A stretch of DNA of 64,000 bases, from the NCBI GenBank assembly GCA_001247695.2, contig LGRX02014764.1, positions 9,647-73,646 of the forward strand, given 5' to 3'. The first letter of the stretch is position 1, and each line of letters begins with the position of its first letter. Source of the stretch: Cymbomonas tetramitiformis. Its lineage: Eukaryota; Chlorophyta; Pyramimonadophyceae; Pyramimonadales; Pyramimonadaceae. The notes below the pieces were generated by a model that was not told the origin of the DNA, did not search any database, and saw nothing but the letters and a program-made list of their open reading frames with translations. The translations under genes and the position numbers were made by a program. This document shows positions 3,063 through 61,385 of this stretch, piece after piece.

Positions 3063-3445
3063 AGCTGCGGCCCAAGTCGCTCACCGCAAGCCGCTCATCT
3101 CATAATCTCCACTAATGCCCAAACGCGCAGACGCGCACCACCTCTCCGAGCGGCCGTTTAGCCAATCATGGCCAAACTAGCAAGTGGAATAAAGCGTGGA
3201 TGGGGCCACGACCTGCTGGAATATCCAAGTTCACAGATAATAGTGTGTGCTGTGAAACTGATATAGATAAACTCTCATAAGAAATAAACCCTAAGCTAGA
3301 TATATCCGGAACGGTCTCGCAACGGTCTCGGATACTAGCCTACACGACACGACGTGTGTCACACACGAACCTATAGATCGGTCGCCGGTCCGGTGTTGGT
3401 CCTAGGGGGTTCATATAGGGGCTGCACCGGGACTCCAAAGGCCCT
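3063..3445 (-). promoter_or_regulatory. Conserved 5' region (LTR/leader) of the gag element
   Basis: The same block precedes the other two gag copies (16160-16500 plus strand, 34440-34800 minus strand). Shared landmarks are GCCAATCATGGCC (CCAAT-like), CAAGTGGAATAAA and the CCGGGACTCC stretch. Conservation of this block in all three copies upstream of gag suggests the promoter-bearing LTR or leader. The exact LTR ends were not resolved. Confidence 0.55.
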
Positions 3446-7240: not shown

Positions 7241-9030
7241 CATTCAGGTTTTTTTGTGAAGGACAAATGCAGTTTGATGCCTTACACGATTCTTATTAAA
7301 ATCGTGTGACTGTGCAAGAAATACTAACTAGCAAATTGTGCCGACAGGACAATTGAAAGCAAGTTTATTTGAGTGCAAACTAGTCTAGCAAAATCATAAT
7401 TGCATACTATTCGAGCAACTTGTCACGAGGCATATACCTGTGTTGACTATGCAAGGCCATCCCTCATCGAGTCGTTGAACAAGTGAAAAGCTCCCTGCCG
7501 TCACTATCCCGACACACACCCGACTCTCTTAGTTAAAAGAAAGACTAAACCAAGTGCGATGCAATAAAAAGCTCAAACAAGGACAAGAGCGTACCTTAAA
7601 TTGGCTGGGTTGGGTTTCACCCTAGGGCGTGCCGAAGGCTAACGCACTCCCAGCCTCATTTGAGCGAATTGTCTATCTAAAACAAAGTTCGCATCGTCGG
7701 ACCTTAAAAACTACAAGCACCTATATCACGATACTCGCTATTTATGCAAGTGCAAATCGCGCTACAAGTTGCACTGCTACTAACTGTAGTAGCAATGACT
7801 GCAAAAGACATGCTACGGAAAGCATGGAGACATACCTTAGATTCCCAGTGTTTCCACACCACCAGAGCCCAAAAGCAATTGGGGTGGTAACTGGGATCGG
7901 TGCGTCGGATATTTATATCCCGCCTCCTCGCCAAGAGCCATGGGGCGGTTGTTATGCAATTTTGAGTTGCGACACTTGGAACCTAGACTGGGCCTTTTTA
8001 GAAGCTAAAAAGGCCCAGTTTTTCACAATCCAGTAAAAACATGCAAACAGGCACACACACTTGTAAAATTCTATCGAAGAATTCAATTTGAAAGCACATT
8101 TTTCCAACTAGCTAGCCTAAAGGCAGATAACGCACACAAAACAAGTACTTAAAAATCACTTAATCATCACGTAACGTGGGAGCTCCTAGCCCCACATCAA
8201 ATGTCGAGCGTCCCTATACCAACTCACCTGCCCTTCAGTATATCACAATGATTCAACGTGCACCGGTGGATCCGGCTTTCCGATCTTGCAGGGGGGTTGT
8301 GGGCGCGCCTGGCGGGGATGATGTCCGCTCATTCCGGTGTGGCCGGCTGCCGCGGGCCATTTTCGGGGGCGTGCTCATGGGCTTCATTTGCGGGCGCTGT
8401 GGGTGAATTACGAAAGGAAAATAGGTGCCCCGGCAGGATCTACTCTCAAAATCTCGCACGAAAATTATGGGGTAAATCATAGTTTTGGGCAAGCGACAAA
8501 GTGCGTGGGTGTGTGGGTTACGTAAACACCAAACGCATCTTGCTTGCGGCGACCACGCAATGACCTACCACCTGCGGAAAATATACGGTACGCGAAAATA
8601 TCAGAAACTATTTTATACTAGCAACACAATACAATCAAATTATTTAGGCTGATCTAATCAGAGTTTGCAGTATGGTTTTCGGCTCTCGTGCTTTCAAACT
8701 TCGGAGACGCACGTAAGACTAAATGGGAAGTCAAGAGCTCACGATACTGTGTCCATCAAGGTGAGGTCGCCATGGCGCAGTCCGAGCGTATGCGCCAGTG
8801 ACATTTCTGCTGATGTCATCGATTACTGGAACGCGAAGAAACGGTGCAGTGCGTTCGGGATTTCCGATGACGGTTACGATCCAAAGCGAAACGAGAACGC
8901 GGATCGCGGACCATCACCATCGTTATGAGCACGCTCTCAGGCGATTCAGGAACGGGTATCGCAAAATGTCGTATGCAGAACACGATCGCTCCGCAACGGG
9001 GGGGAACGGGGAACAGTCGATTACGCATTC
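7241..9030. other. No gene recognised; one strong hairpin
   Basis: Intergenic sequence. A perfect 15-bp stem with a 3-base loop lies at 7987-8019 (ACTGGGCCTTTTTAG and its complement). A short GC-rich island (8260-8400) stands out from AT-rich surroundings. No coding is supported. Confidence 0.5.
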
Positions 9031-10203
9031 AGAACTGAACGCCGAATTCCAGATGTATCTCTTGACTGGATTACTGACCTGCCTATCACCACTAATGGGC
9101 ACGACAGTATATTTGTGGTAATGTGCCAATTTTCTCATCGCTGTCATCTCATTCCCTTCAGCATGACCTGGACAGCTCAGCATACTGCTTATATATATAT
9201 GCAGCATATCTTCAAGCTCCATGGTCTTCCGAGGAACATCATCTCAGATCGAGACCCCAGATTCACCTCTACATTCTGGCAAACACTGTGGAAATCTACT
9301 GGTACAAGATTGTCTATGCCGTCCTCACACCATCCACAGTCGAATGCAGCCAATGAGAGGAGCCATGCCTTCATCGAGGATATCCTCAGGTACTTTTCAA
9401 ATTGTTGATTCATGATTCGATTTCACCATCCTCTGGTTTATAAACTGATTAGGTGGTATTTTTTCATCCACAGGTGTTGTTGCAATGATACTTCAGCCAA
9501 TTCGTGGGAGGACAAGTTGCCTCTGGTGGAGTTTGCAATTAACAACACAGTTTCTGCATCAACTGGTTATTCACCGTTTTATCTCGACTCGATGGCGCAA
9601 CCACTTTCGCCTCATGACCTGGTAATCACTATTCCGCCAGAAGCTCCTGTTCCAATACAAAGAGCTATTCGAGATCATTTTGACCAGTACTCGGCTGTTC
9701 ATGCCAACGCGGTAGACAACATTTCCCGAGCAGCAGAAATTAGCCAAGCCAGATTCAATAAGACTCACATGCCTCGGCAGTATGCAGTTGGGCAGAAAGT
9801 TCTTTTACGGACCGAGTTTATTCAATGGACTGGTTTGACAGAGGCAGGCAGACACTTTAAGCAGCCATATATTGGGCCGTTCACCATTTCCAAAGTGCTT
9901 AGCCATGGGCGTGCATACGAGTTAGATTTCGGAGACCTCGATATCCGTATTCATCCGGTACAGCCTGTATCCAGATTAGAGCTGTACAATGACTCGATCC
10001 AAGCACCTTTGCCTCTGCCACAGATGATCACCGAAGAAGGGCAACCACTGTTTGAGATATCACATATACTCTCGGATAAGTTCACTAGAGGTGTCAAGTA
10101 CTATTTAGTGCGATATGCAGGCTACGGCCCTGAGCATGACACCTGGGTCAAAGCCACAGAGCTGACCAATGCAGCAGACATTATAGCTGCCTATGAAGGC
10201 TAA
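9031..10203 (+). pseudogene. Chromovirus (Ty3/gypsy) integrase C-terminal part with chromodomain, 5'-truncated
   Basis: From about 9043 the reading is integrase core: VSLDWITDLP (first catalytic Asp), HGLPRNIISDRDPRF (second Asp), and NAANERSHAFIEDIL (catalytic Glu). The frame breaks at 9390 and resumes at 9474 without loss, with GT...AG ends between (see the intron entry). The second part gives LPLVEFAINNT, a long integrase C-terminal region (GQKVLLRTEF) and a terminal chromodomain (YYLVRYAGYGPEHDTWV), then a stop at 10203. RT, RNase H and the HHCC zinc domain are absent upstream, so the copy is 5'-truncated. Chromodomains on such integrases are known to direct insertion to heterochromatin in characterised chromoviruses. 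An LTR follows at 11229. Confidence 0.8.
9390..9473 (+). other. Apparent 84-bp spliceosomal intron inside the integrase
   Basis: CTCAG|GTACTT ... TTTTCATCCACAG|GTG. Removing it keeps phase (AG|G = Arg) and joins the two halves exactly where integrase homology is continuous (...EDIL-R-...LPLVEFAINN). The intron itself carries stops. Confidence 0.65.
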
Positions 10204-16501: not shown

Positions 16502-17335
16502 TTGCGCGTTTGGGTGCGACTAGGATTCGGGACATGGCTTTGCGGTAGACGTCTTTTGCGGCTGCGAGTCATGGGCGCCGCGCGTTGCTATTGCTCGATT
16601 TTGGCAATGTTCGTCTACGTTATTTTACCTGCCCTGATCCCGCTGGTTTACGTATTTTGGGATGGTGCTCCGGACACCTTCGACCACGACGACATCTGCA
16701 AGTGCCCCACGCTCGTTTCGCCTCTCCGCACGTCCTGCCATTACGCCTACCCTCCGTTTCCGCCACAACACCCAAACGTGCAGCCGCGCATCATCTTTTC
16801 TCTGGCTTTCAAGCGTATGGCAGCATCTACACGAGCTCGCAAGCGCCTATTGAGGGATTCCGACTTGGACGCCTCAATACGGCTTCTGGATGCGGTTCGG
16901 GACCCCAACCGCTAGCACCCCGCCTGTGGTACCCCCTGCTACTTCCAGCAACTCCGACGCTGCTGTCGCGTTGCGGAAGAACCTTGTATGTCGACCAGCA
17001 TGCAGCGGTTGACGCGGTCTACAAGGGGCGCTTACATCGGGCTTGGGCCAAGGGTATCCGCGAGGATATCCTTGGTTCCAAGAGACATCATTATCGTGGT
17101 ACTGACGACACCGACCGCCTCTCCGAGTTGGTGGTGCAGCTTCGGACCGAGTTTCAGTCCGCTGGGCTGGACTTGGCCCCCTTTGACCTCGACGACCCCA
17201 CCTCTCTGGTTATCGAGAAAGTTAATGGGCTCCTCTATGACGTCTTGGCCCTCGTCGTGGAGCGGAACTCTGTGGCTGACACCTGGCTTCGGGGTACGGA
17301 TTCTTCTTGTTCGGGGGTGCTCTCTAAGAGCTTCT
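16502..17335 (+). pseudogene. Gag-like remnant, second copy, frameshifted and truncated
   Basis: Homologous to the N-terminal part of the 921-aa Gag: MAASTRARKRLLRDSDLDAS in one frame up to about 16915. After a frameshift comes HRAWAKGIREDILGS, HHYRGTDDTDRLSELVV and LVIEKVNGLLYDVLALVVE up to about 17310. The zinc knuckle and the whole C-terminal half are missing. Homology stops abruptly at 17310-17335, close to the LTR-like end of the neighbouring minus-strand chromovirus, which may have been inserted there. Confidence 0.75.
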
Positions 17336-17390
17336 CAGTCTACTTACACAATGCGCAGGGAACCTAGTTCAGTCCTACAAAGAGATATAT

Positions 17391-17932
17391 ATTGCTGTAA
17401 GCATGATGTATATATGAATCGGATCTTTCTTTAATGTCGAAGTTACAACAGCCAGGTGTGGCTGGCTGTTCACAGTAACAAATTCAAAAACTGACTCATT
17501 CAGCCTGCTCGGCTGCCTTATGCCATGGTTTCAGATCTCGAACTTTCGAACATAACTCGATGTCGACTCCTGTCAGGTCCCATCATACTTCATGAGAACT
17601 CGATCTGTCACATCATAGAATCTGCCGACTAGCCCAGTTATATCATCAATCATTCCAGGCCACTCCATATCACTCTGAATAATTATAACTGTGCTGACTC
17701 GGCAATATTGGAGGTCTACCAGCTTTCCCTCCAATTTCTCTGACTGCTGGTTTTCCCACCAAAACTCACTTTCGGGTCAGGCATTTCTGTCAGTCATTTC
17801 TGTCAGTCATTTCTGTCAGACACTCTCGTCATTTGGTCATATAAATGCCTGTCATTGGTGACTGTCATAGTACCCGTCACTCGTCATTCTGACACGCCGT
17901 CATTCTGTCTCGTGACTTACCCTAGCACAACT
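17391..17932 (-). repeat. Presumptive 3' LTR of the methyltransferase-bearing chromovirus
   Basis: On the minus strand a polypurine tract CTAAAAGGGGGGAGAGT is followed by TGTGCTAGGGTAAGTCACGA, a typical LTR start. The segment includes short GTCATTTCTGTCA repeats. The inner end is estimated. The matching 5' LTR was not found within the window, so the call rests on the polypurine tract, TG start and position after the last coding part. Confidence 0.5.
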
Positions 17933-18029
17933 CTCCCCCCTTTTAGGCGCGCGCTTACGTCCTCGCTAGCGTCTAGTGTTCGCCTGTATTTACATTGTCT
18001 GGGGATCAACAAACATGCACAGTGATGTT

Positions 18030-18148
18030 GGCTTCTAAGCCTCGGGTTCTCGGGTCCCGTGCCCCTCAGTCCTTGGGTCTGAGTCCCCCTGGCTTCTAAG
18101 CCTCGGGTTCTTGGGTCCCGTGCCCCTCAGTCCTTGGGTCTGAGTCCC
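18030..18148. repeat. Two tandem copies of a 61-bp repeat
   Basis: GGCTTCTAAGCCTCGGGTTC units begin at 18030 and 18091, each ending TTGGGTCTGAGTCCCC, within the 3' non-coding part of the element. Confidence 0.9.
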
Positions 18149-18271
18149 CTTCCGCGCCGGAGGTTTCCCGAGGCTCCGTCCCCGAATTACGCTGCCAACG
18201 CTTAAACGGTTCTGTCGCCCTGGTACTCCTCTCGCTCTGCGGGTCTTGCGCTGCTTTGCGCCCTGAGGGTT

Positions 18272-19099
18272 TTAGACCCCAGTATCTTGTTCCTGCATCG
18301 GGATCTCGTCCGTCTGCACTGTCAGAGTGGCGATGAGGTCCATGACTGCTGCTGCGCTTTCCTCGCTCATACGCTTACCCAACTTCAGCCCACAGAACAG
18401 ATGGTGCAACAAGGTGCGGGGGATCGCGTATACTGCTTGCGCTGACCCCATGCCTCGTGTTCTGGACGCTGAAACTCCTTTCTGCGATGTGTTCTCGTGC
18501 TTTCCCAGCACAGCTCTCGCGGGACATGGTGTTGCTTGGGTACACTGCAGCAGGGGTACGGGTAGCACGGCGTTCGTCCAGATATGTGTAGGTTTCATGT
18601 AGGGTGTCCCATACCTACAGTAAGAGACGGGGTGAGGATCGGGCAAACCTTTCATCACAGATCGCGTGTGCAGCCCTCGCAGAGCATCTCCAGCCGGGTT
18701 CTCAAAGCAGTATGCTGGATCGTAGTACTCGATGATCTGCCGGGTACGCTTCACTCGCCGATCAGCCAGCTCCAGGTCCGGTACTCCCCTAGTCTTGGCC
18801 TTGCTGTACTCCTTGCATGGTGGGCTCGCCCAGATCACGTCGAAGTAATGTCGGGGGTACAGCCTGTAGTTCCAGTGGAGAATGTCCTCGGTGCATGTTG
18901 CTTGCCACTTAGGGAGAATATCCGACTGTCACCACTTCGCGCAGCCGTCGAACTGTCGTTGGAACTGCTGTTCTACAGACCCAGTCCCACAGAAGAGGAC
19001 GAGGATCCTCACAGGATGTTCCACCGTCGTGAGATGCGGCTGATAGACCTGACTGGCACCCTTACTGTAAACCTTCGGGGTGGGGGCTCTCATTGCCAT
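18272..19099 (-). pseudogene. Retrotransposon-encoded cytosine-C5 DNA methyltransferase, one in-frame stop
   Basis: 275-codon frame from ATG at 19099. It carries C5-MTase motifs in canonical order: motif I VLFCGTGSVEQQF (about residue 30), EDILHWNY (about 73), catalytic motif IV VIWASPPCKEYSKAKT (Cys of PPC, about 90), motif VI CFENPAGDALRG (ENP), motif VIII-like SYCRYGTPYMKPTHIWTN, and an AVYAIPRTLL-type motif IX/X region near the C-terminus. The family transfers methyl from S-adenosylmethionine to cytosine C5. One TGA (18931-18929) lies between motif I and the EDI block, where an amino acid is expected, so this copy is probably dead. The target-recognition region is short. The start codon overlaps the stop of the upstream integrase-chromodomain frame (ATGGCAATGA). 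Capture of C5-MTases by eukaryotic retrotransposons has been described before. I infer that this is such a case. Confidence 0.75.
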
Positions 19100-20975
19100 G
19101 AGCTGAGCCCTCTGCTCCTGCTGCTGGCCGTGCGTCTCCCTACGCCTCTTTTCTGGGGCCTTCCTATGCTTCTCCTCACCTCATCGGCCTCAAAGGCTCT
19201 CAAAGGTTCCAGCCTGCCTCCCTTGCCCTCCAGGTCCTCTCGGGTCCGCCACTGGCTGTGACCGTGTGGTAATCCCTTCCACTTGGTCAACCACTCCTGT
19301 ACTAACTGCCAGTTTTCCCGCCTAACTTCCTGAAGCGTGTACGGATGATGCGCTCCACCTCGCGCTCCTTTTGCCCTTCTACCATTACTGGTGGCGGTGC
19401 CATCTCTTCTCGTCTGCTGACAAAGTGATTTGCGCCTGACTGTACTGGGCTGAGCCTGTCTGCGGTGAATGTGTCATGTACCTTCCAGTGCACGGGCAAC
19501 TCCAGTCTGTATGCTGACGGGGCTCCTCGGTCCTGCACTGGTAACAACTCCTGCTGCCGGTCACTGTACAAACATTCTACTACTCGCAGAGGTCCGTGCC
19601 GCAATTTGCGCAACTTGGGTTTCAGGCCCCTGTCACCAGGCAACGTCAAGTGTTGTCCATCCACCCACACCTGATCATTCACCTTATACTGCTGGAGCCG
19701 GTGCCGTGCATCAAACTGCTCCATCATGCGCTGCTGAGCCATTTGCAAACCATCTCGTGCCGCCTGCAGCTGCTGCGCGAACTGCTTGGCCAACTGATGT
19801 GCTGTACCTTGCTTGTCCGCTGCCGTGCGACCTCCCTTTCTCCTCTTTGCGCCTCCCTCCAGTGCTGCGTCCATGAAGAGGTCCAGCTGGGTTGCTGGCG
19901 CATGTCCGTACACCAGCTCGAATGGTGAGAACCCTGTTACTGCCGACTTGGAGTCATTGATGGCGTACTCCACTGGAGCCACCCACAGGTCCCAGTCCTC
20001 CTGGTTCTCTGCTACATAACAACGCAGCATGCGCTCCACGGTGTGGTTACTACGCTCAGCCTGGCCATCACTCTGCGGGTGATAAGGGGTGGTGCTGGCT
20101 ACCTTTACGCCCATCAATCGCATGAACTCCTGTGTCAGAGCATCTCGAAAGCGCGGATCCCGGTCGCACACAATCTTCATCGGGGCCCCGTGCAGTCGCC
20201 ACACTGCATCCATGAACATTCTGGTCACCACCTCCGCTGAACTATCGTTATACGCCATTGGGACCACGTGCACCATCTTACTCAGTTTACATGTAAATGT
20301 GGCGAAGGCATTCACACCTCTCTCTGTCGTGGGGAGACCAGTGACAAAGTCTATGCTCACCACTTCCCACAACCGGCTAGGCACAGTGTGGGGCTGCAAC
20401 AAGCCTGTTGGGTATCCTTGGCGCGGCTGGGTTTGCTGACAGGTTACGCAAGTCTTCACCCATTCAGCTACGTCCAGGTCCATTCGCGGCCACCAGAATC
20501 GCCGCCTGACTCTGTCCAAGGTTTTGTCCCTCCCTGTGTGACCTGCTGCAGGTGCTTCGTGAGCTTCCCTCAAGACCAGCTCTCTCAGAGGGGAGTCGGG
20601 AGCTAACACCACCTGATAGCGTCCTTCCGCCACTCTCCAGATGATGTTACTCGCCAGCCGAAAATGCTCGGTGCGGTGGTGCTGTGTGGCCAGTAATTCC
20701 TGCTTCAGGGCTGATAGGTACTCACTGCGCCTGTGTTCTGCCCGTAAGGCACGCAGAAACATTCCCGGTTGCACCACACCTGCCTGGTCCCTGATCTTTG
20801 CTGCTGCACCCTTGAGAGTCACTGCTGGTGATGCTGAGGGTCTTTCTCTCGGAGCTGTGATCTCGTCGAAGTGCTTACGCTGTGGTTTGGCCAATACTAC
20901 CAAGACGGGCCATGGGATGGGCAACTCCTGCAAGGCTGTACGGTGCCCCCTTTCTTCGCCAGGAGAGATGAACAT
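19090..20975 (-). pseudogene. Chromovirus integrase plus chromodomain, one frameshift
   Basis: 20975-19302 encodes the integrase: HHCC zinc domain (HEAPAAGHTGRDKT...CVTCQQTQP), then the catalytic core VVSIDFVTGLP (Asp), IVCDRDPRF (Asp) and HPQSDGQAERSNHTVERML (Glu), then the C-terminal domain (VNDQVWVDGQHL, YRLELPVHWKVHDTF). A chromodomain begins VERIIRTRFRKLGG, shifts frame at about 19305, and continues as LTKWKGLPHGHSQW to a stop at 19090. It inserts retroelement cDNA into the genome; the chromodomain is a histone-reading module in known chromoviruses. The integrase catalytic triad is intact, but the chromodomain is split. Its 5' end overlaps the NPPF-bearing frame. The downstream neighbour is the C5-MTase. 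Confidence 0.85.
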
Positions 20976-21823: not shown

Positions 21824-23126
21824 ATAGTCCGGTCGCCGTGCGTGAGGCAGCGTCTGGTACTACTAGTGTGCGTCCTGGCACGTGCTCCATTGCGTGCACT
21901 CCTACTTCCACCAGATCTTCATACCGCCTGGCCTGACGTCGGCTGAGCTCACGTCCAGGTGCAAACAACCACTTCAGTGGAGCATGGTCCCCCATCAGCC
22001 TAAACTCCGTGAAGATCAAGTAGTGTCTCCACGTCTGTGTGGTGCAGTGGTGAATCGCGGCCAGCTCTCGCTCACCGGCGTGGTAGTGCTCGGCTGAAGA
22101 GAATTGCTTACTCTCGAAGGCTATGGGTTGCAGGCCCTTGCCTAGATCCTGCATCAGCACGCCAGCTAATGCCACTGCACTCGCATCGGCCTGCACAACA
22201 AAGGGGCTGATGCCGCGATGAGCTGCTTCCTGATCGGGCAAGATCAAGGTCGGTGCAGTGGTGAGAGCGGTCTTGAGGCGTGCAAAGGCGTGTTCCTGCT
22301 CCGGTCCCCATTCCCATGGCACTAGGTTCTTGGTTAGCTTGGTCAGTGCTAAGTCAGCGAAACCCTGTATGTACCGTCGATAAAACCCAGCCAAACCCAA
22401 GAACTGTCGCACGTGCTTCACCGTTTCCAGTCGCGGCCAGTCCCGTATGGATGTTATCTTGTCTTGCGGTGGTCGGCAGCCAGTGCGGTCAATGACATGT
22501 CCCAGGAAACGTACTGAGCGTTTAAAGCATCGTAGCTTGGACTCCTTCAGCTTGACCTTATTCTGTCGACATACCTCCAAAACCTGCCGCAGGTGGTCCA
22601 GGTGCTCCTCGGGGTTGCGTGAGAAGATCATAATGTCATCCACAAAAACTCTGACGAACGGTAGGTGGCCCAAGTACTTCTGCATCATCCACTGCCAACA
22701 CGAAGGACTATTGGACAGCCCCATTGGCATGCCCAACCACTCATATGCTCCAAACGGCGTGGTCATGGCGGTCTTCTCCACTGCTTCTTCCTCCATAGGG
22801 ACTTGCCAAAACCCCCACAATGCATCAGCGGTAGAAAAGATGGTTGCTCCTTGCATGTCATCAATAAGAGCCTGCACGTCCGGTAAGGGGTAACGGTCCT
22901 TTACAGTGATCTCGTTGATCTGTCTGTAGTCAATCACCAGCCTTAGTTCCTTTGGGTTCGAAGGCTTGGGCACCATCAACACCGGACTGCCCCATGGCGA
23001 GGAAGAAGGGCGGATGTACCCTTTTGCCAGAAGCTCGTTTAACTGTACACGCAGCTGCTTCATTTCCTCCATGGATAGTTTGTAGCATCGTTTATGTCGA
23101 GCTCCCTCCTTGTACTCAGGGTCCAT
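21729..23126 (-). CDS. Ty3/gypsy reverse transcriptase and RNase H
   Basis: 465-residue stretch with RT blocks: ELLAKGYIRPSSSPWGSPV, LRLVIDYRQINEITVKDRYP, FSTADALWGFWQVPM, GMPMGLSNSPSCWQ, and catalytic VRVFVDDIMIFS (the two Asp of the xxDD box). Connection: RFLGHVIDRTG and FLGLAGFYRRYI. Then Ty3-type RNase H: VQADASAVALAGVL (Asp), FTEFRLMGDHAPLKWL, HVPGRTLVVPDAASR (Asp). It copies element RNA into cDNA. The region upstream (23127-23391) contains one stop and one frameshift before this frame, so the start codon shown is nominal. The upstream ELPKGVVDREHKS fits the protease-RT linker of gypsy elements. Confidence 0.9.
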   Translation of the reverse strand: MDPEYKEGARHKRCYKLSMEEMKQLRVQLNELLAKGYIRPSSSPWGSPVLMVPKPSNPKELRLVIDYRQINEITVKDRYPLPDVQALIDDMQGATIFSTADALWGFWQVPMEEEAVEKTAMTTPFGAYEWLGMPMGLSNSPSCWQWMMQKYLGHLPFVRVFVDDIMIFSRNPEEHLDHLRQVLEVCRQNKVKLKESKLRCFKRSVRFLGHVIDRTGCRPPQDKITSIRDWPRLETVKHVRQFLGLAGFYRRYIQGFADLALTKLTKNLVPWEWGPEQEHAFARLKTALTTAPTLILPDQEAAHRGISPFVVQADASAVALAGVLMQDLGKGLQPIAFESKQFSSAEHYHAGERELAAIHHCTTQTWRHYLIFTEFRLMGDHAPLKWLFAPGRELSRRQARRYEDLVEVGVHAMEHVPGRTLVVPDAASRTATGLCAGDGARSWVCGPEYRPAGICRGGQKSSGRV

Positions 23127-24155
23127 CCAGTACCAGCGGCGATTTGTGCTCTCGATCTACCACGCCCTTGGGTAGTTCCATCCCCACCACGTCCTGGTAC
23201 CGCTGCTTCTACAGCTTCACCAGTTCGTCCAGGATCCATTGTGGTACCTCTGCGTCCTCCTCATCCGGCTTGGCCTCCTTGGTCTCGCCTCCGTGCTGCT
23301 TGACCTTGCCGTCCGCGCCGCTGTTCTGCTCATCACCAGGTGCCGCCGCAGCAGCTGGTGCCTCCTTCCTGAAACAGCTATGCCCATCTTTCAGGGAAGA
23401 TATCTTCCTGGGATTGGCCGGCCCGGGGCCGTGTCACGGAGGCCCGGGCCGAAGGCGGGCCGAAGGAAAAGTTGCGGATGGGCCGAGTCGCATTGAGGGG
23501 AAAATCGATAAAATTCCAAAATTTTGTCGATTTTTGACAAATTGTCATACTTAAAATTAAAATTTTGCGCCTGCGGCGGGCAATTTTGGGTTCGGGCCGA
23601 GACGGGCCGAAATGTGGCCGAAGTAAATTCCCAATGCGGGCCGAGTCACCTCCGCGGAAGATATCTACCCTGCCATCTTTGCTTTGCCCTGTCTCAGCTT
23701 CTATAGGTGCTGCCAGTACTGGCTCGCTAACTCTGCGCGATCTCCTGTGGTTCGCCCCTCTGCTCCTCCGCTGCTCCTGCTGCAGGCGCAGTGCCTGCCC
23801 TGTTTTCCACAAACAGTATGCCTCCTCTTCCCACTCAGGTTCCAATTCCTCCGCATGGTGCTGTGCTGCCTGCTCCCTGCGCTGCCTCTCGCGGAAGCAT
23901 CTGGAACGCTTCCCATCTGGCCCTCGTGGGGTAAGGTCCCCAGTCTCGCACAGCGGATTGCGCTGATGTGGGGCACGTCACCGGTCGCAGAGCACACACC
24001 TGCTCCTGTGCCCAGTCCTCCTGGTCCGTTGCATCTTGTTCAGATTCGGACGAACTGCTGTCGGAGATTAGGGTGGCCACGCTCGCTTCTGTACTGTCGC
24101 TGTTGCAGCCTTCCTCGTCAGAGGTAACTTCCCCCCCTTTGCCTAGCGTTGTCAC
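23127..24155 (-). pseudogene. Gag/protease-side remnant of the chromovirus, interrupted by a MITE
   Basis: Pieces of acidic/Arg-Gln-rich coding flank the MITE at 23392-23672: 24155-23681 reads VTSDEEGCNSDSTEAS then EEEAYCLWKTGQALRLQQEQ. 23391-23127 continues with KEAPAAAAAPGDEQNSGADG, QWILDELVKL, a stop, and ELPKGVVDREHKSPLV. No zinc knuckle or protease active site (D-S/T-G) is recognised. The composition fits the region before RT. The frame across the MITE is continuous if the insert and one target duplicate are ignored. Confidence 0.5.
23392..23672. mobile_element. 281-bp hAT-type MITE
   Basis: The terminal inverted repeats are CAGGGAAGATATCTTCC (left) and CAGGGTAGATATCTTCC (right, complement), 16 of 17 matching. 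An 8-bp duplicate CCATCTTT flanks both sides (23384-23391, 23673-23680). CAGGG ends plus 8-bp duplications are hallmarks of the hAT superfamily. It has no coding capacity, so it would depend on a transposase elsewhere. It interrupts the chromovirus upstream coding region. Confidence 0.9.
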
Positions 24156-24735
24156 CCTCTGCCTCCGATGATGATGATGAAGATGAATCTGATAAGGCTG
24201 CAGATGCCTCTAAGGGAGAGTTGGGGTCGTCGGTGGCCCATTTCCAAGGTGGACATAACCGCCGAAGATTTCCCCTTTTCTTTCCCATCGAAAGGGGGGT
24301 TTCCATAAACGATTCTGCCAATGCCTGTTATCGGGTCCACATAGGCATCCCAAGCGAGACCATCAAAGCCAATTTTCCCATGATGGCAGAAAGGCTTGAG
24401 GGCTTTTTTCATTCTTGCGGTGGGTATGCATCTTCTCGAGTAGATTCTAGGGTGGGCATTTAGAGGGTTAGAAAAGAGTTCGCACCCGTTTTTGTCCAGG
24501 TTTCTGTCGTCCACCAAAATATCTAAGAGGCATCTTCTTATTGCGTAGCAGTTTTTCGGATCGCCCGATTCAAACTTGCATGCATTGAGTGCTTCATGAA
24601 TATCATGTGCTCTATTCGAGTACTCCGCAAGTGAGCATGGAACTACTTTGTTGGAAAGACGGTGCCAAGCCAAAAGTTTCCAGAACTCTTTCCTTTGGAC
24701 ATACAGATGCTGGAACTTTTGATAAGATTTTTAAT
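24152..24735 (-). pseudogene. Second NPPF (adenine-MTase-like) fragment, unrecognised family
   Basis: A readable stretch begins around FQHLYVQRKEFWKLLAWHRL (24712 downwards) and runs to about 24180. It contains CELFSNPLNAHPRIYSRR, KIGFDGLAWDAYVDP and GRIVYGNPPFDGKEKG. NPPF preceded by a hydrophobic strand, plus the LFSNPLNAH opening, resembles Dam-like modules found in retroelements. It differs in sequence from the 20.9-21.8 kb module. Its reading ends in an (ATG)n-like low-complexity tract. In another frame this overlaps an acidic serine run (about 24200-24150) that leads into the gag-side remnant, so it may be the 5' part of the same element or an older, separate insertion. Function unproven. 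Confidence 0.4.
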
Positions 24736-25145
24736 CTTCCAAGCAAAATCACAATGATGTAAATCAATATGTGGCAAGCAGCTGTATGAAGAATGAATGA
24801 ATCTATACTCCTTCCTCCCCCTTTTAAAAAGAGTTGTATCAAACCAATCAGATGGTGATGGAGAATGCTATTCAATCATTATGTTATGTGAAAATGGTCT
24901 CAGTAATCAGACTGAGATTACTTATCGAATGCTTTCGAGGTAACAATGTCAATATGAACACCGATTCTCTCCACGTCATACCGGCAATATGCCTGACGTT
25001 TTTGAATGTGGCAAATGCCAGATGATGTCAAATATCCAATGTCAATTCACTATGAATTAATATGCAGTTTTTGGGTTGCAGCCCACATACATTGTCAGTT
25101 CAGGGTCACTATAGTGTGCCCAACTTAGACAATGTTTCTGGATAA
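24736..25145. other. No gene recognised
   Basis: AT-rich sequence between the chromovirus remnant and the LINE; only short frames. Confidence 0.5.
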
Positions 25146-25157
25146 TGATTGTCATAA

Positions 25158-25808
25158 CCGGTATAAAAAATGGGGTCTCCATACCCGAGCAGCTCCAAAA
25201 GGACCTCAAAATGCCGGGGGTGGACGGCAAACTAAGCCACTTCAAAATACTCAAGCCGGAAGACACATACAAATACCTGGGGGTACTGCTGGCATTCACC
25301 GGCAAGTGGGACAGGGAGAAAGAAGCAGCCAAGGAAGAAATGAACCACAGAATACAAGCCCTACTGCGCTCCCCGCTAACGCCGGACCAAAAAGAATACT
25401 CTCTCCACTCTGCGATACTGGGGAAGTTCAGGTATGGACTGCACCTGGGACTCTATACGGCAGGCGAAATAGATGACTTCGACAAAATAATAGGCGGGGC
25501 CATAAAGAACATACAGGGCCTACCCCGCAACGGAACACCAAACATTTTTACCACTCAGGAAAAAGAACAATACGGCCTGGGCATGGTGCCACTCCAGGCG
25601 GTCTACGCCCAGTCGATTTGGAGCGGACTGCTTGAGGCCATGCACAGTGAAGAAGATAGAGGAAATATACGGGGCCCGGCGTGGAGACAAATAAACCTGA
25701 GGTCACGGCTCAGGATGTCCCATGTCAGTAGGTCCACCAGAGGACTGGTGGAGTACCACTGCACAACGCGCAGGAACTGCACAGACCTAGACAAACTCTG
25801 GGGGGGGG
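25158..25808 (+). pseudogene. LINE RT thumb / post-RT region, first frame segment
   Basis: The reading starts inside RT: DTYKYLGVLLAFTGKW (the Y-x-Y-L-G thumb motif), then helical sequence (YSLHSAILGKFRYGLHLG) and GLGMVPLQAVYAQSIWSGLL. The frame continues to a run of nine G at 25800-25808. Beyond that, coding continues in another frame, so one base was gained or lost there. The catalytic palm (F/Y-x-DD) is missing because of the 5' truncation. Confidence 0.75.
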
Positions 25809-28800
25809 CACCAAACAAAACACAACACACTGAGAAAACTCAATGCCCTGCTCAGGTACAATATTACGCCCCAGGGAACGGAGGGGATGCTCGAACAGCT
25901 GCAAACCCCAATACCGAAGATAATGGAACAACTAAAGGGGGCGACCAGAAGAAAGTCTGACAAAGAGATGGAAGGAACCACTAGAAAAACAATAGCAGGC
26001 AAAATAATGGATGGGGACCTGCCAGCACCTCCGGGATGGCAGGCGGTGTGCACGGACCAAACAGCCAGACTCACGGTACCCAAGGACACACCGACCGCAA
26101 TAAATTTCACGACGTGCCTCAAACTGTTCGCGCACTTCCCGGACCTAGTGCTCCTTACCACTCGAGATGGCCAACACGCGATTAGCCAAACGAACGTCAG
26201 AGAGCAATGCACAGATGCAGCCCTCAAAGCCGACCGCTGTGCCATAGCAAAAGGCCTGGCACACCTGTACCCGTACTTGTGCGAGGCCCAGCCTAGGAAC
26301 ATAGCGAAGCCGGGGGACTTCTACGACAGTCACAACAACAGGCGCCTCAAGCAACAGTACAGAAGCATGCCCTCGGAGGGACCACTGGACCCCCACACGA
26401 TGAAAACCAACCTCCCTCGCCTCCGCCCGGAGGAGCTGCAGGCCAAAATGACGGAATGGGAGGCGAGAATGGTCCCCAGAGAGGAGATTCGCAGGCGGCT
26501 CTCCCTGCACCCACTTACAAAGATAAACGAGACGGAGATTACCAGCCCAGAACAGGAGCGGGAAGAGGAGGAACCACAAGACCTCCGCACATGCCCACAA
26601 ACCAAGTGGATAGACGAAATAGACCCCATGGTTGAGAAAATTGAAATAGGCTTCGAAAAGGGCCAAACCATAGACAAGCCGAAAGAGATTGTGGCAATGA
26701 GGACCCTACTCGTTGACCCAACTGACCCCCACTCCCTGGTGACGCAATATAGAACCCAGTGGAGGCACCCGGAGGGGAATGACTCCTACTCATGGAGCAC
26801 GAGAGAAACCATAACTGACTACCTAAAACTCGCCAAGAAAAGAGGCCAAAGCGCGACCACCTTCCCAACCCTGAAAAGAAGGCTACGTGCAAGGGGCTCC
26901 CAGGTGACCCACCCCACAGGCCTCAGAGAAATACTGGCTGGAAGACCACACCTGGGGGAAGCCTGGCCCTCACTACATGCGGGAAACCTTACCCTAGACC
27001 CGACGGAAACCAACCCGGAGCAGGACATTGTGGACGATAGGGAGCACCACTGCCAACTACGGCTGGAAGGGGAGCTAGCCCACAGTTACCACAGAAATGG
27101 AAAATACATAGGCACTCTCACGAAAGAAAAGCTCCTCAGATTACACGAAAGGTACACCCAGGCAGTGGGTACCACAGACCACCAAACCCCACACCAACGC
27201 ACACTACGCACCGAAATGTGGGAAGACCATAATATTCAGGTCTCCACGTTCGAGGAAGAAATAGGGCACCTACTCATCAGATACTCAAGCAAAGAAGAAA
27301 AGGAGGAACGAAAAAAGAACCTGCAAAACCACTGGACATTCCCTGCACAGATGCAACGGGCGCTACAACAGGCATTCGGAATTACCACCGAACTATTTGC
27401 CTCACCCCTCAATGTTCACCACAACACCACGACTTACTACGCCAAGTATGACAGAGACAAAGTGTTCGGAGCTAGAGGCTCAGCCTGGGCAACGAACTGG
27501 ATGAAGCTCGGGGCCTACCAGTTCAACCCGGAATACACACCACAGGACCTCAAAAAGGCACTGGACTTTGCCATTGCGGCCACCACCACCCAAGACCCAG
27601 TGTTCGGGGTCGGGGTGTACCCGACATACGAGAAGACCCCATACAGGAAGCTGTACAACTCGCATGCAGGGCACCTTGTGCACGAACTGTTTGAAATACC
27701 ACAAGGCAAATTCACATTTCTGCCCCCAGACCACTGGATGGGTGCCACCCACCAACAGGCGAAACAGTGCAACTGGAACCTTAGGGTACTAATTGTTGCC
27801 AACAAAGCGGGGTGGCAGGCACACTGCGGAGACCCAGACGCTGCTGCGGATTACATAAGCAGAGCACTCACAACATGCCCGCAAAGCAAGGTCCGCACGA
27901 CCACAACAGTCAGACAACCAATGAGGGAGGCGAACTTGCACGACGCAAACGAACCGCACCAGGAAGTGCGCGGCCCCAGAGTGGACTGTGTAGTGGACAC
28001 GAGACCGTGGCAAAGGTACGAACTCCCGGAAGTCAAGACAAAAGACATGACAAATGCAATGGGAAGAATGTGTAACGCAGGGCCACACCTACGGAACGAC
28101 CTCTGCCCCCAGTGCTACAACGTGCAGGCAACAGTAGAAACCTGGTGGGAGGACAGCCACCTCCACGTGGAAGAAGGACCAGCCAAGTGGGAACACCTCC
28201 CCGGAAGCAGGGGAGGTAAATGGGACATACACCCCCCCACTGTGCAACAGGTCGTGGAAGCCAACACTCTGCACACCAGGCTTACAAGGCAGGCTGACGC
28301 TCAAACGATATGGGATAAGGTAGCAAGATCAAAAATTGTCAGGCACCCCACTGACTTCTGGCCCGAACACGAACCGGGAGCCCAAGGAAGGAGATGGGAA
28401 CTGACGAGGGACCGAACAGAGGACCCCAGGAACCAAGCCCCGAGTAACACCCTAGCCCAACTGACGTACCCCCCCCCTCGAAGGGCACATGAGGCAACCT
28501 CGTACCTATACACAGACGGGAGCAAAAGAGAAATCGAAACTGAGGAAGGGGGCAAAGAGTGGGCTTCGGGAGCCGCGGTATGGGACCCCAGGCCCGGGGA
28601 CGGGGAGGCCCACATGATTCGGTGGGAGGGGGAAGACCAAGAGGTGAATAGAGCTGAGCTTCTTGCCATACAAAAAGCAGTAACGCTCCCGCCTCCGGCA
28701 AGTGGCCAAGGACTCACCATTTGCACAGATAGTGCCAACTCTATTAGACAACTGGAGAGCATGAGAACGAAACCCCACAGCATGGAACACCACCGGCAAA

Positions 28801-30683
28801 GGGACCTCCTATATGCCATATTGGTCAACATTGAGGCATTGGTAGCAGCGGGACACACAGTTTCAATACTAAAAGTCAAGGCTCACACAGGAATAGCGGG
28901 AAACGAAAAAGCCGACGAAGCAGCCAAGCAGGCCTGCACCACAGGGACCCTCACGGAAGCGTGGGATAACTACGAAACAATAAAAGTCAAACCCATGATA
29001 CCGGATGGGGACTCGGACAGCAGGGAGCTGAAAGGGAAGCTCGCGGTGCAAAAATACGTAACCACATTACTCCGTGAAAGGCAAGCCCAAGGCAACAGCA
29101 GGCTCACAGCAAAAACTACCGAGCTCCAAGGAGAACCCACAACCTGGACCCACCAACTGAAAAAGAAGCACATTTTCAGGTGGGAAGCGCACCACGACCA
29201 AGCGCAACAAACTGAAGAGGAACGAGTGACAATACGGGACCCAACACCCAACCAACAGCAACAAGCTGACCGGACCCGAGACGAGGTGGGCAGGCAAATA
29301 AGAGCCATGATGGAACAAAGAGATGAAGAGGAAATGCTCCTTTGGCAAGAAATGCATGAGCAACAAGAACGCCGGGAGGCGGGGAGCGGAACGGACCCAG
29401 CCAGAGGAAGTGACCCTGAACCCGCAGGGACACCACCTCAACCCACTGATGCGGAAGACATATATGAAGAACTCAACGAGCTAGTGGAGAGGCTTGAGGT
29501 AACCCAAGAGGAACACAATGACGAGGAATTGTTTGGGATGCTCAACGAGCTCATTGAACAGCAGGAAGCACCTCAAGGGGAGCCGGCAAACGAGAAGCAA
29601 GCTCACCATGACCGAGTTGCGGAGGAGTCCAGACTCCACGCGATGACAGAGGACCCAATGCCCAGGACAAGATGGAAACAGCAAAAGCACGACAGGATAC
29701 ACAACAGAACGAAAAGGAGGAGCGCCCCCCCGGCCCAGAAAGGCAAGACCACCGAAAGCTGGCTAAACGAAACAATGAAACACCTCAAGGGAGACAGACC
29801 ACTCCACAAGATAGCGAACGGCTTCTGGAAGAGAGCCTCCTTTGCGGCGCGAAAAACAATACTCAAATGCAGACTGAGAATACTGCCAGCACAAGACTAT
29901 GAGACGGCGAAAAACTCGGCCGGAGGAAGCGGAAAGTGCACCCTGGAGGGATGTGGACACAAAGGGGTGGATTACGCAAAGGGCTTCCTCATGAGAGTAG
30001 GGCACGCCCTGGGAGGATGCAACCACCCACAAATGCGAGGAATGTTCTCGGATAGGGCGGACGCCCACGCAGACGAACTAAAACACATACTTGACCACCA
30101 TAGGAAAGGAGGATGCAAAGTCCTTGCCTACACCGGAAAAAAGAGGGACCCAGGGACTAAGCCAAGGGTACTCCCGAATTACATACTCACCAGGGGGCAA
30201 TGCAGACACGACGGGAAGGACAACCCAGGCAGAAACGATGGGCCCGACACCATACCGAGCTTTGTAGACATAGTCATGATAGAGGGCCTGGAAGACCTGG
30301 AGGACGGGTGGGAATGCACACAACAGGAAGCACCAGCAAGAGTCAAGAACCTACACCTCATTGAGGTGGCCCACACCGACGACGAAAAATGGGGACCCAA
30401 ACTCCTGGAAAAATACACAAAATACGGACCACTGCTACAATTGCTACGTAGACACGGATTCCGCGCTAAGCTCCATGTCTTTGCAGTGGGCAGGACGGGC
30501 ACGGTGTACAAACACAACCAAGACATACTCGAGCAACTTGGACTCAATAGAAAAGAGGCCACACAAGCACTACAAAGGATACACGACCTGACAGTAAGCT
30601 ATGCACACAGCACCTACCAACTCTACAGAAGACTCAGACAGGAAAAGCGAGAGGAGGAAAGAGATGAGAACCACCCAGTGTAA
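25809..30683 (+). CDS. LINE polyprotein C-terminal part with RNase H and Cys/His domain
   Basis: About 1,600 codons without a stop. Residue numbers count from Met at 25887. Middle: RNase H type I around residues 870-1020 with SYLYTDGSKREIE (Asp), EVNRAELLAIQKA (Glu), LTICTDSANSI (Asp) and HTGIAGNEKADEAAKQA (His and Asp), so all catalytic positions are present. Next comes a Glu-rich region with a repeated LNEL(V/I)E motif (about 1190-1240), possibly coiled coil. Near the C-terminus is a Cys/His cluster, GKCTLEGCGHKG...VGHALGGCNHPQM, of the kind seen after RT in several LINE clades. A Cys-pair region lies near residues 735-745 (LRNDLCPQCYNVQ). The long open frame implies recent insertion despite the truncation. 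The clade cannot be fixed without the RT palm. Confidence 0.85.
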   Translation, partial: HQTKHNTLRKLNALLRYNITPQGTEGMLEQLQTPIPKIMEQLKGATRRKSDKEMEGTTRKTIAGKIMDGDLPAPPGWQAVCTDQTARLTVPKDTPTAINFTTCLKLFAHFPDLVLLTTRDGQHAISQTNVREQCTDAALKADRCAIAKGLAHLYPYLCEAQPRNIAKPGDFYDSHNNRRLKQQYRSMPSEGPLDPHTMKTNLPRLRPEELQAKMTEWEARMVPREEIRRRLSLHPLTKINETEITSPEQEREEEEPQDLRTCPQTKWIDEIDPMVEKIEIGFEKGQTIDKPKEIVAMRTLLVDPTDPHSLVTQYRTQWRHPEGNDSYSWSTRETITDYLKLAKKRGQSATTFPTLKRRLRARGSQVTHPTGLREILAGRPHLGEAWPSLHAGNLTLDPTETNPEQDIVDDREHHCQLRLEGELAHSYHRNGKYIGTLTKEKLLRLHERYTQAVGTTDHQTPHQRTLRTEMWEDHNIQVSTFEEEIGHLLIRYSSKEEKEERKKNLQNHWTFPAQMQRALQQAFGITTELFASPLNVHHNTTTYYAKYDRDKVFGARGSAWATNWMKLGAYQFNPEYTPQDLKKALDFAIAATTTQDPVFGVGVYPTYEKTPYRKLYNSHAGHLVHELFEIPQGKFTFLPPDHWMGATHQQAKQCNWNLRVLIVANKAGWQAHCGDPDAAADYISRALTTCPQSKVRTTTTVRQPMREANLHDANEPHQEVRGPRVDCVVDTRPWQRYELPEVKTKDMTNAMGRMCNAGPHLRNDLCPQCYNVQATVETWWEDSHLHVEEGPAKWEHLPGSRGGKWDIHPPTVQQVVEANTLHTRLTRQADAQTIWDKVARSKIVRHPTDFWPEHEPGAQGRRWELTRDRTEDPRNQAPSNTLAQLTYPPPRRAHEATSYLYTDGSKREIETEEGGKEWASGAAVWDPRPGDGEAHMIRWEGEDQEVNRAELLAIQKAVTLPPPASGQGLTICTDSANSIRQLESMRTKPHSMEHHRQRDLLYAILVNIEALVAAGHTVSILKVKAHTGIAGNEKADEAAKQACTTGTLTEAWDNYETIKVKPMIPDGDSDSRELKGKLAVQKYVTTLLRERQAQGNSRLTAKTTELQGEPTTWTHQLKKKHIFRWEAHHDQAQQTEEERVTIRDPTPNQQQQADRTRDEVGRQIRAMMEQRDEEEMLLWQEMHEQQERREAGSGTDPARGSDPEPAGTPPQPTDAEDIYEELNELVERLEVTQEEHNDEELFGMLNELIEQQEAPQGEPANEKQAHHDRVAEESRLHAMTEDPMPRTRWKQQKHDRIHNRTKRRSAPPAQKGKTTESWLNETMKHLKGDRPLHKIANGFWKRASFAARKTILKCRLRILPAQDYETAKNSAGGSGKCTLEGCGHKGVDYAKGFLMRVGHALGGCNHPQMRGMFSDRADAHADELKHILDHHRKGGCKVLAYTGKKRDPGTKPRVLPNYILTRGQCRHDGKDNPGRNDGPDTIPSFVDIVMIEGLEDLEDGWECTQQEAPARVKNLHLIEVAHTDDEKWGPKLLEKYTKYGPLLQLLRRHGFRAKLHVFAVGRTGTVYKHNQDILEQLGLNRKEATQALQRIHDLTVSYAHSTYQLYRRLRQEKREEERDENHPV

Positions 30684-30807: not shown

Positions 30808-31345
30808 TGAACAACGAAATCAGGGAGCGGAGAGACGCCAAGGAGACATGCGCGAGATCGGCCGCGAGAGGATACCGCACCTTGACCGCGGTGTAAAACA
30901 CCGGTTCTCCTCGGTAGGTGTCCAGTCCGTAGCTTTGTTATCCCGCACCAGACGCTGTTCCCGAGCCAAGATGGGCTGCGGGTCAGTGCCTGCGGGATAA
31001 CGCAACGCGGCGTGCTCCTCCTGGTGCGACTCACGCAGCGCCACCGGTACACAGCCCTTGATGATGTCCACCAGGGCTCGCCGTCCATCACGGTCAGACG
31101 AGGCGTCGGTGCCAGTCAACCAGACGTAGGCGTTGCTGTGCTTCTCGATAACCAGAGCCAGAACGTCGAAGAGCAAGCCGTTGACCTTGGTCACCACACG
31201 AGCCAGAGGGTCGTCGAGGTCAAAGGACGCCAGCTCCAGTCCAGCCGAATAAAACTCCGTACGCAGCTGCACCACCAGCTCGGAGAGGAGGCCAGCGTCG
31301 TCCGTACCGCGGAAGTGGTGCTTCTTGTCCCCAAGGACATCCTCG
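30808..31345 (-). pseudogene. Gag-like remnant, third copy, downstream half
   Basis: Homologous to the 921-aa Gag from DVLGDKKHHFRGTDDAGL through VTKVNGLLFDVLALVIEKHS and DPQPILAREQRLVRDN. A frameshift follows near 30895, with readable sequence to about 30815, where the LINE insertion site lies. The upstream half lies at 33888-34390, the other side of an inserted TIR element. The zinc knuckle is absent. Confidence 0.8.
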
Positions 31346-60735: not shown

Positions 60736-61385
60736 TTCATGACATGGCAGATATCGACGTGGTCATTCTCTACATTCACAAGTGGACCAACAATAGAATT
60801 GTAATAGGTCCAACTAAGATCGAAGCACCCGCGTTAGAAGAGTATCTTTTATTCTTTATACTAGGATATATACATCGGGGCAGCGAACTATAGCGTGGAC
60901 GTGCAGGTCAATGACACATGGCATTACATGGTACAACTTGTCAGGAACTGAGAAACACCTGGAGACCAATCTGGCGGATGGTGGAGCTCAATGCAGAAGG
61001 GCGACGCGAAAGTATCTCTGTCGTTTCCAATTGGGAGTTCCTGCGCAATTTTGAATTGATTGATGCCAGTGCCGGTGAACATGAACGATGAAGTTATTTA
61101 TTTTTTCCTCCAGCTGGAGGAAAAATCAAAACACTCGTCACTTCAAAATTGAAAATGACTACACACGACAGGCGAGGGGAGCCGAGCAGCCGACTGCGAG
61201 TCTCAGTCCGCGACTTCAGTCAAGAGACGGGGGGAATAGTAGTAAGTAGATACGTAGATGCGTATCTACTAGTCTTTAGTTTATGGAATCTGCGTATTAT
61301 AGATATTCCTTTGTTGCGATTGAACACCATAATTCTTCACTTCACTTTCTGCCTCTACACCTATTCTTTTCACCCACTGAAAAAT
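60626..61385. promoter_or_regulatory. Divergent intergenic region between the two ELIP-like genes
   Basis: The 5' UTRs are inverted copies up to about 60735 and 61283 (AATCTGCGTA...TAGATATTC; CTGCCTCTACACCTATTCTT). The central part (about 60740-61280) is unique and holds no gene; it must contain regulatory sequence for both genes or one promoter lies within the arms. CCTCCAGCTGGAGG (about 61109-61122) is a perfect 14-bp palindrome, extending to TTTTTCCTCC/GGAGGAAAAA. Confidence 0.6.

Follow-up and report, generated by a model that had tools for sequence, protein, structure and literature searches.

The 64,000-nucleotide (nt) stretch of the Cymbomonas tetramitiformis genome analyzed here, called the window throughout (contig LGRX02014764.1, positions 9,647 to 73,646, from an 851.7-Mb assembly of 25,745 contigs), carries on its minus strand, at 24237-17308, a decayed, 5'-truncated copy of a Ty3/gypsy chromovirus. 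The Pol polyprotein of this element combines two DNA methyltransferase domains, one of the cytosine-C5 type (C5) downstream of the chromodomain and one of the Dam (adenine-N6) type. The C5 downstream of the chromodomain, proposed in a preliminary description made from the sequence alone, is confirmed. That description did not include the Dam-type domain in the same Pol (window 21391-20820), the position of C5 as the C terminus of the Pol polyprotein with no separate gene, or the fact that C5 resembles viral enzymes and not Dnmt3. It correctly noted published cases of C5 capture by eukaryotic retrotransposons (de Mendoza et al. 2018, PMC5890265); what is new here is the presence of a viral-type C5 and a Dam domain in one chromovirus.

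C5 and Dam domains of the Pol polyprotein

The features of the window copy were placed by comparison with Pfam and PHROG profiles and with two copies found elsewhere in the genome, C10056, which is intact, and C2507. They are listed below in the 5'-to-3' direction of the element, with RT denoting reverse transcriptase and LTR long terminal repeat.

23125..24237, minus strand: protease-RT stretch, remains in several frames; the copy is truncated here
22476..23093, minus strand: RT; PF00078 E 3.8e-33; 95% identity to C10056
21900..22319, minus strand: RNase H; PF17919 E 1.6e-22; PF17917 E 2.9e-21; 96% identity to C10056
20820..21391, minus strand: Dam-type (adenine-N6) methyltransferase domain containing CNPPF, located between RNase H and integrase; PF05869 E 1.7e-6, 28.2 bits (cut-off 28.1); PHROG 111 E 1.4e-9; first 137 of 190 amino acids (aa) 97% identical to those of C10056
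near 21041-20981, minus strand: frameshift in the Dam domain
19398..20618, minus strand: integrase (zinc-binding, core and C-terminal part); PF17921 E 2.1e-23; PF00665 E 2.4e-8; 97-99% identity to C10056
19183..19385, minus strand: chromodomain; 96-97% identity to that of C10056; split by a frameshift near 19302/19305
18275..19036, minus strand: C5 cytosine methyltransferase domain; 93% identity in one frame by tblastn with the C5 of C10056; PHROG 757 E 4.3e-11; motifs I, IV, VI and VIII; interrupted by an in-frame stop (TGA, 18931-18929)
18029..18149, minus strand: two 60-bp direct repeats with 61-bp spacing in the 3' untranslated region (UTR)
17931..17944, minus strand: polypurine tract (AAAAGGGGGGAGAG)
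17308..17929, minus strand: 3' LTR, starting TGTGCTAGGG; 89% identity to the C2507 LTR over 626 columns

The C5 motifs followed one another in the expected order in a single minus-strand frame, as had been described: a motif I-like LVLFCGTGSV (given before in the shorter form FCGTGSV), motif IV SPPC, motif VI FENP and a motif VIII-like YCRYGTPYMKPTHIWTN. The coordinates agreed with the earlier placement of this frame between the integrase-chromodomain upstream and the polypurine tract and 3' LTR downstream. The damage had been given as one TGA; this in-frame stop was present at 18931-18929, but frameshifts also interrupted the protease-RT stretch and Dam and separated the integrase from the chromodomain, and one residue was missing beside motif VI. 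No protease, gag or 5' LTR of the chromovirus copy was found within the window. Identity to seven close copies (L002-L008) was 96.5-98.7% over about 2.4-2.5 kb, and only 11 unique changes were available for the analysis of substitution contexts. The nearest named proteins were C. tetramitiformis gene models, among them P0001 (94% identical) and P0009, a single protein with the tail of the chromodomain and part of C5. A 192-aa frame containing YGNPPFDGK (window 24155-24730, minus strand), without a Pfam or PHROG match, adjoins the broken 5' end of the copy and could derive from a different element that carries Dam.

The Pfam DNA_methylase profile (PF00145), which the preliminary description had named as a check, stayed below its cut-off of 22 bits wherever it was scored, that is, on the window fragment (E 0.081, 12.8 bits) and on four polyproteins, with a range of 12.8-20.5 bits. 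Two other comparisons did match methylases: PHROG 757 "DNA methyltransferase" matched the intact copy with an E value of 5.8e-15, and a profile of the C5 family searched against the PDB matched DNMT2, M.HaeIII and DNMT1 (E 2e-4 to 8e-3). A precomputed PF00145 match was listed for many free-standing relatives and for P0005, and among the 12 full polyproteins described below for P0070 alone; with the profile unlisted or below its cut-off in the other 11, such elements are easily overlooked in annotation. When 13 C5 domains were screened by simple pattern, motif I was found in 11, IV in 12, VI in 13, VIII in 10 and X in 12, following the usual C5 motif numbering. The catalytic-type signatures PPC and ENP were present in 12 of 13 (by pattern) and 13 of 13, respectively, and all 13 domains contained C-x5-C-x(6-9)-H, perhaps a zinc site.

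C5 belongs to a family of about 200 aa, from which 50 proteins, Cymbomonas retroelement proteins included, were recovered in a protein search that finds only relatives sharing short exact words. Relatives outside retroelements were small free-standing or viral enzymes. Thirteen phage records were 28-35% identical, two of them with a query coverage of at least 80%, and further relatives lay in IMG/VR loci L041-L058, of which L041 has a terminase-like gene and L042 a D5/primase-like gene. In a C5 tree of 56 rows, 14 retroelement domains and three other proteins formed a cluster (97/94 support) apart from the 11 placeable IMG/VR sequences. No donor was found among the viral, phage and prokaryote relatives searched. 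DNMT3 was absent from the seven PDB matches obtained with the family profile at E<=0.01. These comparisons suggest that C5 is nearest to the small viral enzymes of PHROG 757 and not to Dnmt3, and we favor a viral origin. Judged by similarity, a captured Dnmt3 as the source received no support from either the protein relatives or the PDB profile matches. An origin from a bacterial genome is less favored: of the eight loci found in the prokaryote genomes searched, one was full-length (L069, 40% identity) and the others were partial.

The Dam-like domain between RNase H and integrase matched PF05869 and PHROG 111 (E 7.6e-10 for C10056). Its PF05869 scores were 20.7-36.5 bits, above the cut-off of 28.1 in the window frame, P0054, P0055 and P0057 and below it in C10056, P0051, P0059 and P0060. 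The motif CNPP[FY] was present in 11 of 12 Dam domains, TIGR01712 scored far below its cut-off on Dam, and the domain alone had no match among solved structures. In a genome search in which 150 of 7,037 candidates were scored, 147 of the 150 matches were free of stops and 67 (query copy included) were listed as 100% identical over 196 aa. Seven Cymbomonas gene models carried Dam and no C5 match (P0064-P0068, P0072 and P0074); because these models are truncated, at least in part, they do not allow a loss of C5 to be judged.

Genomic copies, inheritance and selection

Many copies in which this frame is open were found elsewhere in the genome, as the predicted intact element implied, and other copies linked the C5 frame to the integrase. 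Both observations on which the preliminary description had staked its claim, a methylase match (made here through relatives) and this linkage in other copies, were thus made. The genome was searched with the part of the window C5 that follows the stop, and 150 of 7,730 first-look candidates were scored. All 150, the window copy included, matched, 147 had no stop in the matched stretch, and 10 lay in open frames of more than 2,500 aa. Nine of these 10 were selected for their long frames and fetched, and each had a single Pol frame of 2,552-2,577 aa that ended in C5. Among the eight copies with flanks, five (including C701, whose Pol frame is broken) had paired LTRs of about 601 bp that were 99.17-99.83% identical, with an LTR-to-LTR span of 13.9-14.4 kb. 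A 5-bp target duplication flanked three of the five (GTATG, AAAAT and CACGT) and was not seen in the other two, C17227 and C13906. The LTR ends were TG...CA, and a polypurine tract and a primer-binding site, presumably tRNA-iMet-like, were present. In all six copies read upstream, a Gag frame with a CCHC knuckle overlapped the Pol frame by 586 nt in the -1 frame; it was open for about 1,650 aa in C2507 and C701 and for 754-1,450 aa in the other four. A Pfam map of C10056 and the domain maps of the 12 polyproteins gave the chromovirus order of protease (PR), RT, RNase H and integrase (IN), the last of the DDE type, and in C10056 a chromodomain was located at the integrase C terminus (Pol 2203-2249; PF00385 E 1.5e-7, 31.6 bits, cut-off 25.1). 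The near-identical LTR pairs and the target duplications indicate that amplification was recent. With a length of about 13.9-14.4 kb, this C. tetramitiformis chromovirus is large, and it is abundant.

A search with P0004 revealed an older lineage in the same genome, with the order integrase-chromodomain-C5 at 8 of 10 loci, and a further family, known from coordinates alone, with frames of 2,469-2,490 aa in 23 of 150 scored matches. Chlamyvir-like chromoviral pol genes have been reported in Cymbomonas in the accessible text of Gyaltshen et al. 2023 (PMC10675990), and that of Burns et al. 2015 (PMC5741210) gives homology to a chromodomain, to RNase H and to a cytosine methyltransferase for scaffolds with more than 10,000x coverage.

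Protein searches limited to the C5 and Dam regions yielded 12 and 18 polyproteins, 24 of them different, and 25 were mapped when C10056 was added. The whole series PR-RT-RNaseH-Dam-IN-chromodomain-C5 was present at full length in 12 of the 25 (seven of the 12 examined with Pfam). P0071 had all seven domains with a shortened C5, and the other mapped polyproteins were mostly partial or odd gene models. Two of the 12 are from Cymbomonas, nine carry ENA or JGI labels and one an NCBI label, and some of these may be from Cymbomonas as well. Their identity to C10056 was 32-97%, depending on the domain, with values ranging from 95% down to 47% for RT, 92% to 45% for C5, 77% to 38% for Dam and 91% to 32% for the chromodomain. 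Both enzymes were kept together even though RT, RNase H and integrase had diverged to about 47-55% identity. The Pol and C5 trees agreed in their groups, and the Dam tree showed the same groups with weaker inner support. This agreement indicates that both methyltransferase domains were inherited with Pol, and the simplest reading of the sequences is that C5 and Dam were present in an ancestor and passed on with it. A recent one-off capture was ruled out by the matching trees and the divergent polyproteins.

A different layout was found in P0062, a Ty3 polyprotein from an ENA contig, in which C5 occupies residues 1023-1235, between RNase H and integrase, and whose domain map contained no Dam or chromodomain. 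Its best matches in the Cymbomonas genome were at most 41% identical (25 scored of 23,122 candidates), and it seems to come from another host. P0062 formed a long branch of unsure position in the C5 tree, and a single retroelement C5 clade was not rejected by the approximately unbiased (AU) test either with it (p 0.36) or without it (p 0.31). Two independent C5 captures within the retroelement set are thus neither shown nor excluded.

Both C5 and Dam are under strong purifying selection. Rates of nonsynonymous (dN) and synonymous (dS) substitution were estimated by NG86 from pairs that are not independent. Between two subfamilies of the element, C5 had a dN of 0.012 and a dS of 0.25, giving a dN/dS of 0.047 (63 pairs), and among the nine intact copies Dam had a dN/dS of 0.022 (36 pairs, dS 0.046), similar to the values of 0.025 for RT and 0.021 for the integrase core. 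At codon positions 1, 2 and 3, C5 differed by 0.8-2.4, 0.4-1.2 and 11-19%, respectively (six of seven loci versus two copies).

Possible roles of the two methyltransferases

As the most likely reading, we give an even chance to the proposal that the two domains are active enzymes, packaged with Pol, that methylate the element's own double-stranded cDNA. C5 and Dam would travel with Pol in the particle, the double-stranded cDNA would be methylated before or at integration, and each new copy would arrive bearing N6-methyladenine (6mA) and 5-methylcytosine (5mC). These marks could disguise the copy as host DNA, protect it from nucleases or fix its chromatin state, and the chromodomain ahead of C5 would keep the enzyme at the integration site. 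A precedent is available in the accessible text of PMC5890265, where the DNMT of a Symbiodinium DIRS element is reported to methylate CG de novo and self-methylation of cDNA is proposed. More tentatively, and at somewhat less than even chance, an old clade of algal chromoviruses may mark its own cDNA with 6mA and 5mC by means of virus-derived enzymes, with the P0062 layout representing a separate capture. If so, new copies would arrive already wearing host marks in prasinophyte-like hosts. As far as the accessible text of PMC12695648 and PMC12344493 goes, a link between 6mA and permissive chromatin is seen across eukaryotes, also in prasinophytes, whose gene bodies carry widespread 5mC; this makes mimicry of the marks an idea that can be tested, and no more.

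Several observations count against self-methylation of the cDNA. Transposition also occurs, within the same genomes, in elements that lack a DNMT in the account of de Mendoza et al. (PMC5890265), and transcripts of over-represented repeats were not over-expressed as a whole in that of Burns et al. 2015 (PMC5741210), both accounts being taken from accessible parts of the papers. Dam aligns to only about 30-43% of the PF05869 profile, so that full Dam activity is not assured, and the target-recognition part of C5, as estimated from its length, is very small. Picking the copies by an intact frame or by close similarity of the protein lowers dN, but we do not see how it could make divergence so large at third positions and nowhere else. 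For the older P0004 lineage the dN/dS was 0.30 for C5 (45 pairs) and 0.72 for the chromodomain (28 pairs), higher ratios that are as expected from decay after insertion; between this lineage and the main family dS was saturated (infinite in 66 of 160 C5 pairs), and that ratio was left unused. Finally, the two subfamilies (L002-L008 versus C2507 and C13906) differed by 2-5% in the 3' UTR and by 6-8% in the LTR, with 11-13% divergence in one 75-nt LTR match. These values are well below the C5 dS of 0.25, and the elements may therefore be mosaic through recombination or constrained at their 3' ends.

Other roles were weighed against the same evidence. The succession integrase-chromodomain-C5 is analogous to plant chromomethylases, and C5 could act in a chromomethylase-like manner on the host chromatin at and around the target, binding a methylated histone and confining copies to silent regions where they do limited harm. 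C5 stood behind the chromodomain in 12 of 12 full polyproteins, and the accessible text of Burns et al. (PMC5741210) cites a paper on chromodomain-directed integration into heterochromatin. Such a role is rather unlikely in our view, however. It leaves the Dam domain, placed before the integrase, unexplained, and in P0062 C5 follows RNase H and precedes the integrase, with no chromodomain found. The top PDB matches of the family profile, at E 2.3e-4 for both DNMT2 and a tRNA (cytosine-38) methyltransferase, would suit a C5 that, instead of methylating DNA, methylates RNA as DNMT2 does or merely binds nucleic acid and so aids packaging or priming, for which the C-x5-C-x(6-9)-H found in 13 of 13 domains could bind zinc. 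The DNA enzyme M.HaeIII matched nearly as well, though (E 4.2e-4), the relatives of C5 in phage and viral genomes are annotated as DNA methyltransferases, and the same protein contains Dam, a DNA enzyme type, which together make an RNA role improbable.

Slightly less probable again is that both enzymes shield the cDNA from sequence-specific nucleases of large algal DNA viruses or ingested bacteria, as the modification-only half of a restriction-modification system. Chloroviruses encode adenine and cytosine methyltransferases together with nucleases, Cymbomonas is a bacterivorous host, and C5 and Dam match the viral/phage families PHROG 757 and 111. In the text available from each source, giant-virus and polinton-like elements are reported in the host genome (PMC10675990) and an antiviral role of retrotransposon methylases is proposed (PMC6338049). 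A shield of this kind requires a constant threat during reverse transcription, however, and no matching nuclease or target specificity was identified. As for chance motifs or an unrelated adjoining pseudogene, which the sub-cut-off PF00145 scores on the window fragment and four polyproteins might suggest, practically no room is left: this explanation is refuted by the 147 of 150 open matches, the single Pol frames in nine of nine copies, the linkage in 12 polyproteins, the codon-position signal and the family-profile and PHROG matches, and P0070 has a listed PF00145.

Other elements in the window and comparison with known systems

The window holds further retroelement sequences. A 1,630-aa open frame (25791-30683, plus strand) with an RNase H domain (PF00075, E 1e-15) and a PCIF1_WW domain (PF12237, E 7e-17) is accompanied by a frame that appears RT-like by eye (25115-25960, plus strand) and is perhaps a LINE-like element with a PCIF1-like methyltransferase; P0064, a gene model from Cymbomonas, likewise contains PF12237, together with RT and Dam. 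At 8944-10203 (plus strand) there is a second, distant integrase-chromodomain fragment (PF00385 E 1.2e-8; 25-29% identity). An RT frame at 44949-46262 (minus strand; PF00078 E 2.6e-12) represents another retroelement; one stretch of it is 25% identical to the RT of the chromovirus. Three mutually DNA-related frames at 297-3080 (minus strand), 16549-17367 (plus strand) and 30820-31413 (minus strand), assigned to families D8, I2 and I6, are gag-like by eye; the Gag region of the chromovirus copy C2507 had no DNA match within the window. An inverted repeat at 59194-60665 and 61346-62817 has arms of 1,472 nt that are 97% complementary and 680 nt apart.

The repeats of Burns et al. 2015 (PMC5741210) and the chromoviruses of Gyaltshen et al. 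2023 (PMC10675990) are very probably the same elements as the one described here; in the accessible text of these papers the pieces are not joined into one element, and Dam is not mentioned. The word "Cymbomonas" is absent from the available text of PMC12344493, and PMC5890265 (de Mendoza et al. 2018) contains neither it nor "chromodomain" in its main text. A retrotransposon carrying Dam as well as C5 was not found described in the literature searched, which excluded subscription papers. Retrotransposons bearing C5 and those bearing Dam were previously known separately. With a Pol that holds both methylases and is abundant in a genome of about 0.85 Gb, the question of why retroelements retain DNA methyltransferases can be tested directly, and if the source of C5 was viral and not the host, it would represent a second route of capture beside the published one.

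The phage enzymes of PHROG 757 and those of IMG/VR belong to the same C5 family of about 200 aa, but they are free-standing and unfused to Pol, and the best phage identity is 35%. DIRS elements use a tyrosine recombinase; the Cymbomonas Dam sits in a Pol with a DDE integrase, after RNase H and before that integrase, and has C5 as a partner. Dam-like adenine methyltransferases of DIRS elements are likewise of bacterial/phage type and part of a polyprotein, according to the accessible text of PMC5890265 and PMC6338049. The same portion of PMC5890265 describes SymbioDIRS-Dnmt3 and SymbioLINE-Dnmt of Symbiodinium, which are likewise retrotransposons with a C5 domain but are DIRS and LINE elements, not Ty3, with one methyltransferase type each, that of the DIRS element being Dnmt3-type. 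It also describes KnitGypsy-Dnmt3 of Klebsormidium nitens, which is, like the Cymbomonas element, an LTR Gypsy element with C5 in Pol and under purifying selection, with a Ka/Ks below 0.2 given for it. There, however, the enzyme is Dnmt3-type, the repeats are DIRS-like and no Dam is mentioned, whereas the Cymbomonas element has a C5 resembling small viral enzymes, ordinary LTRs and, in addition, both Dam and a chromodomain.
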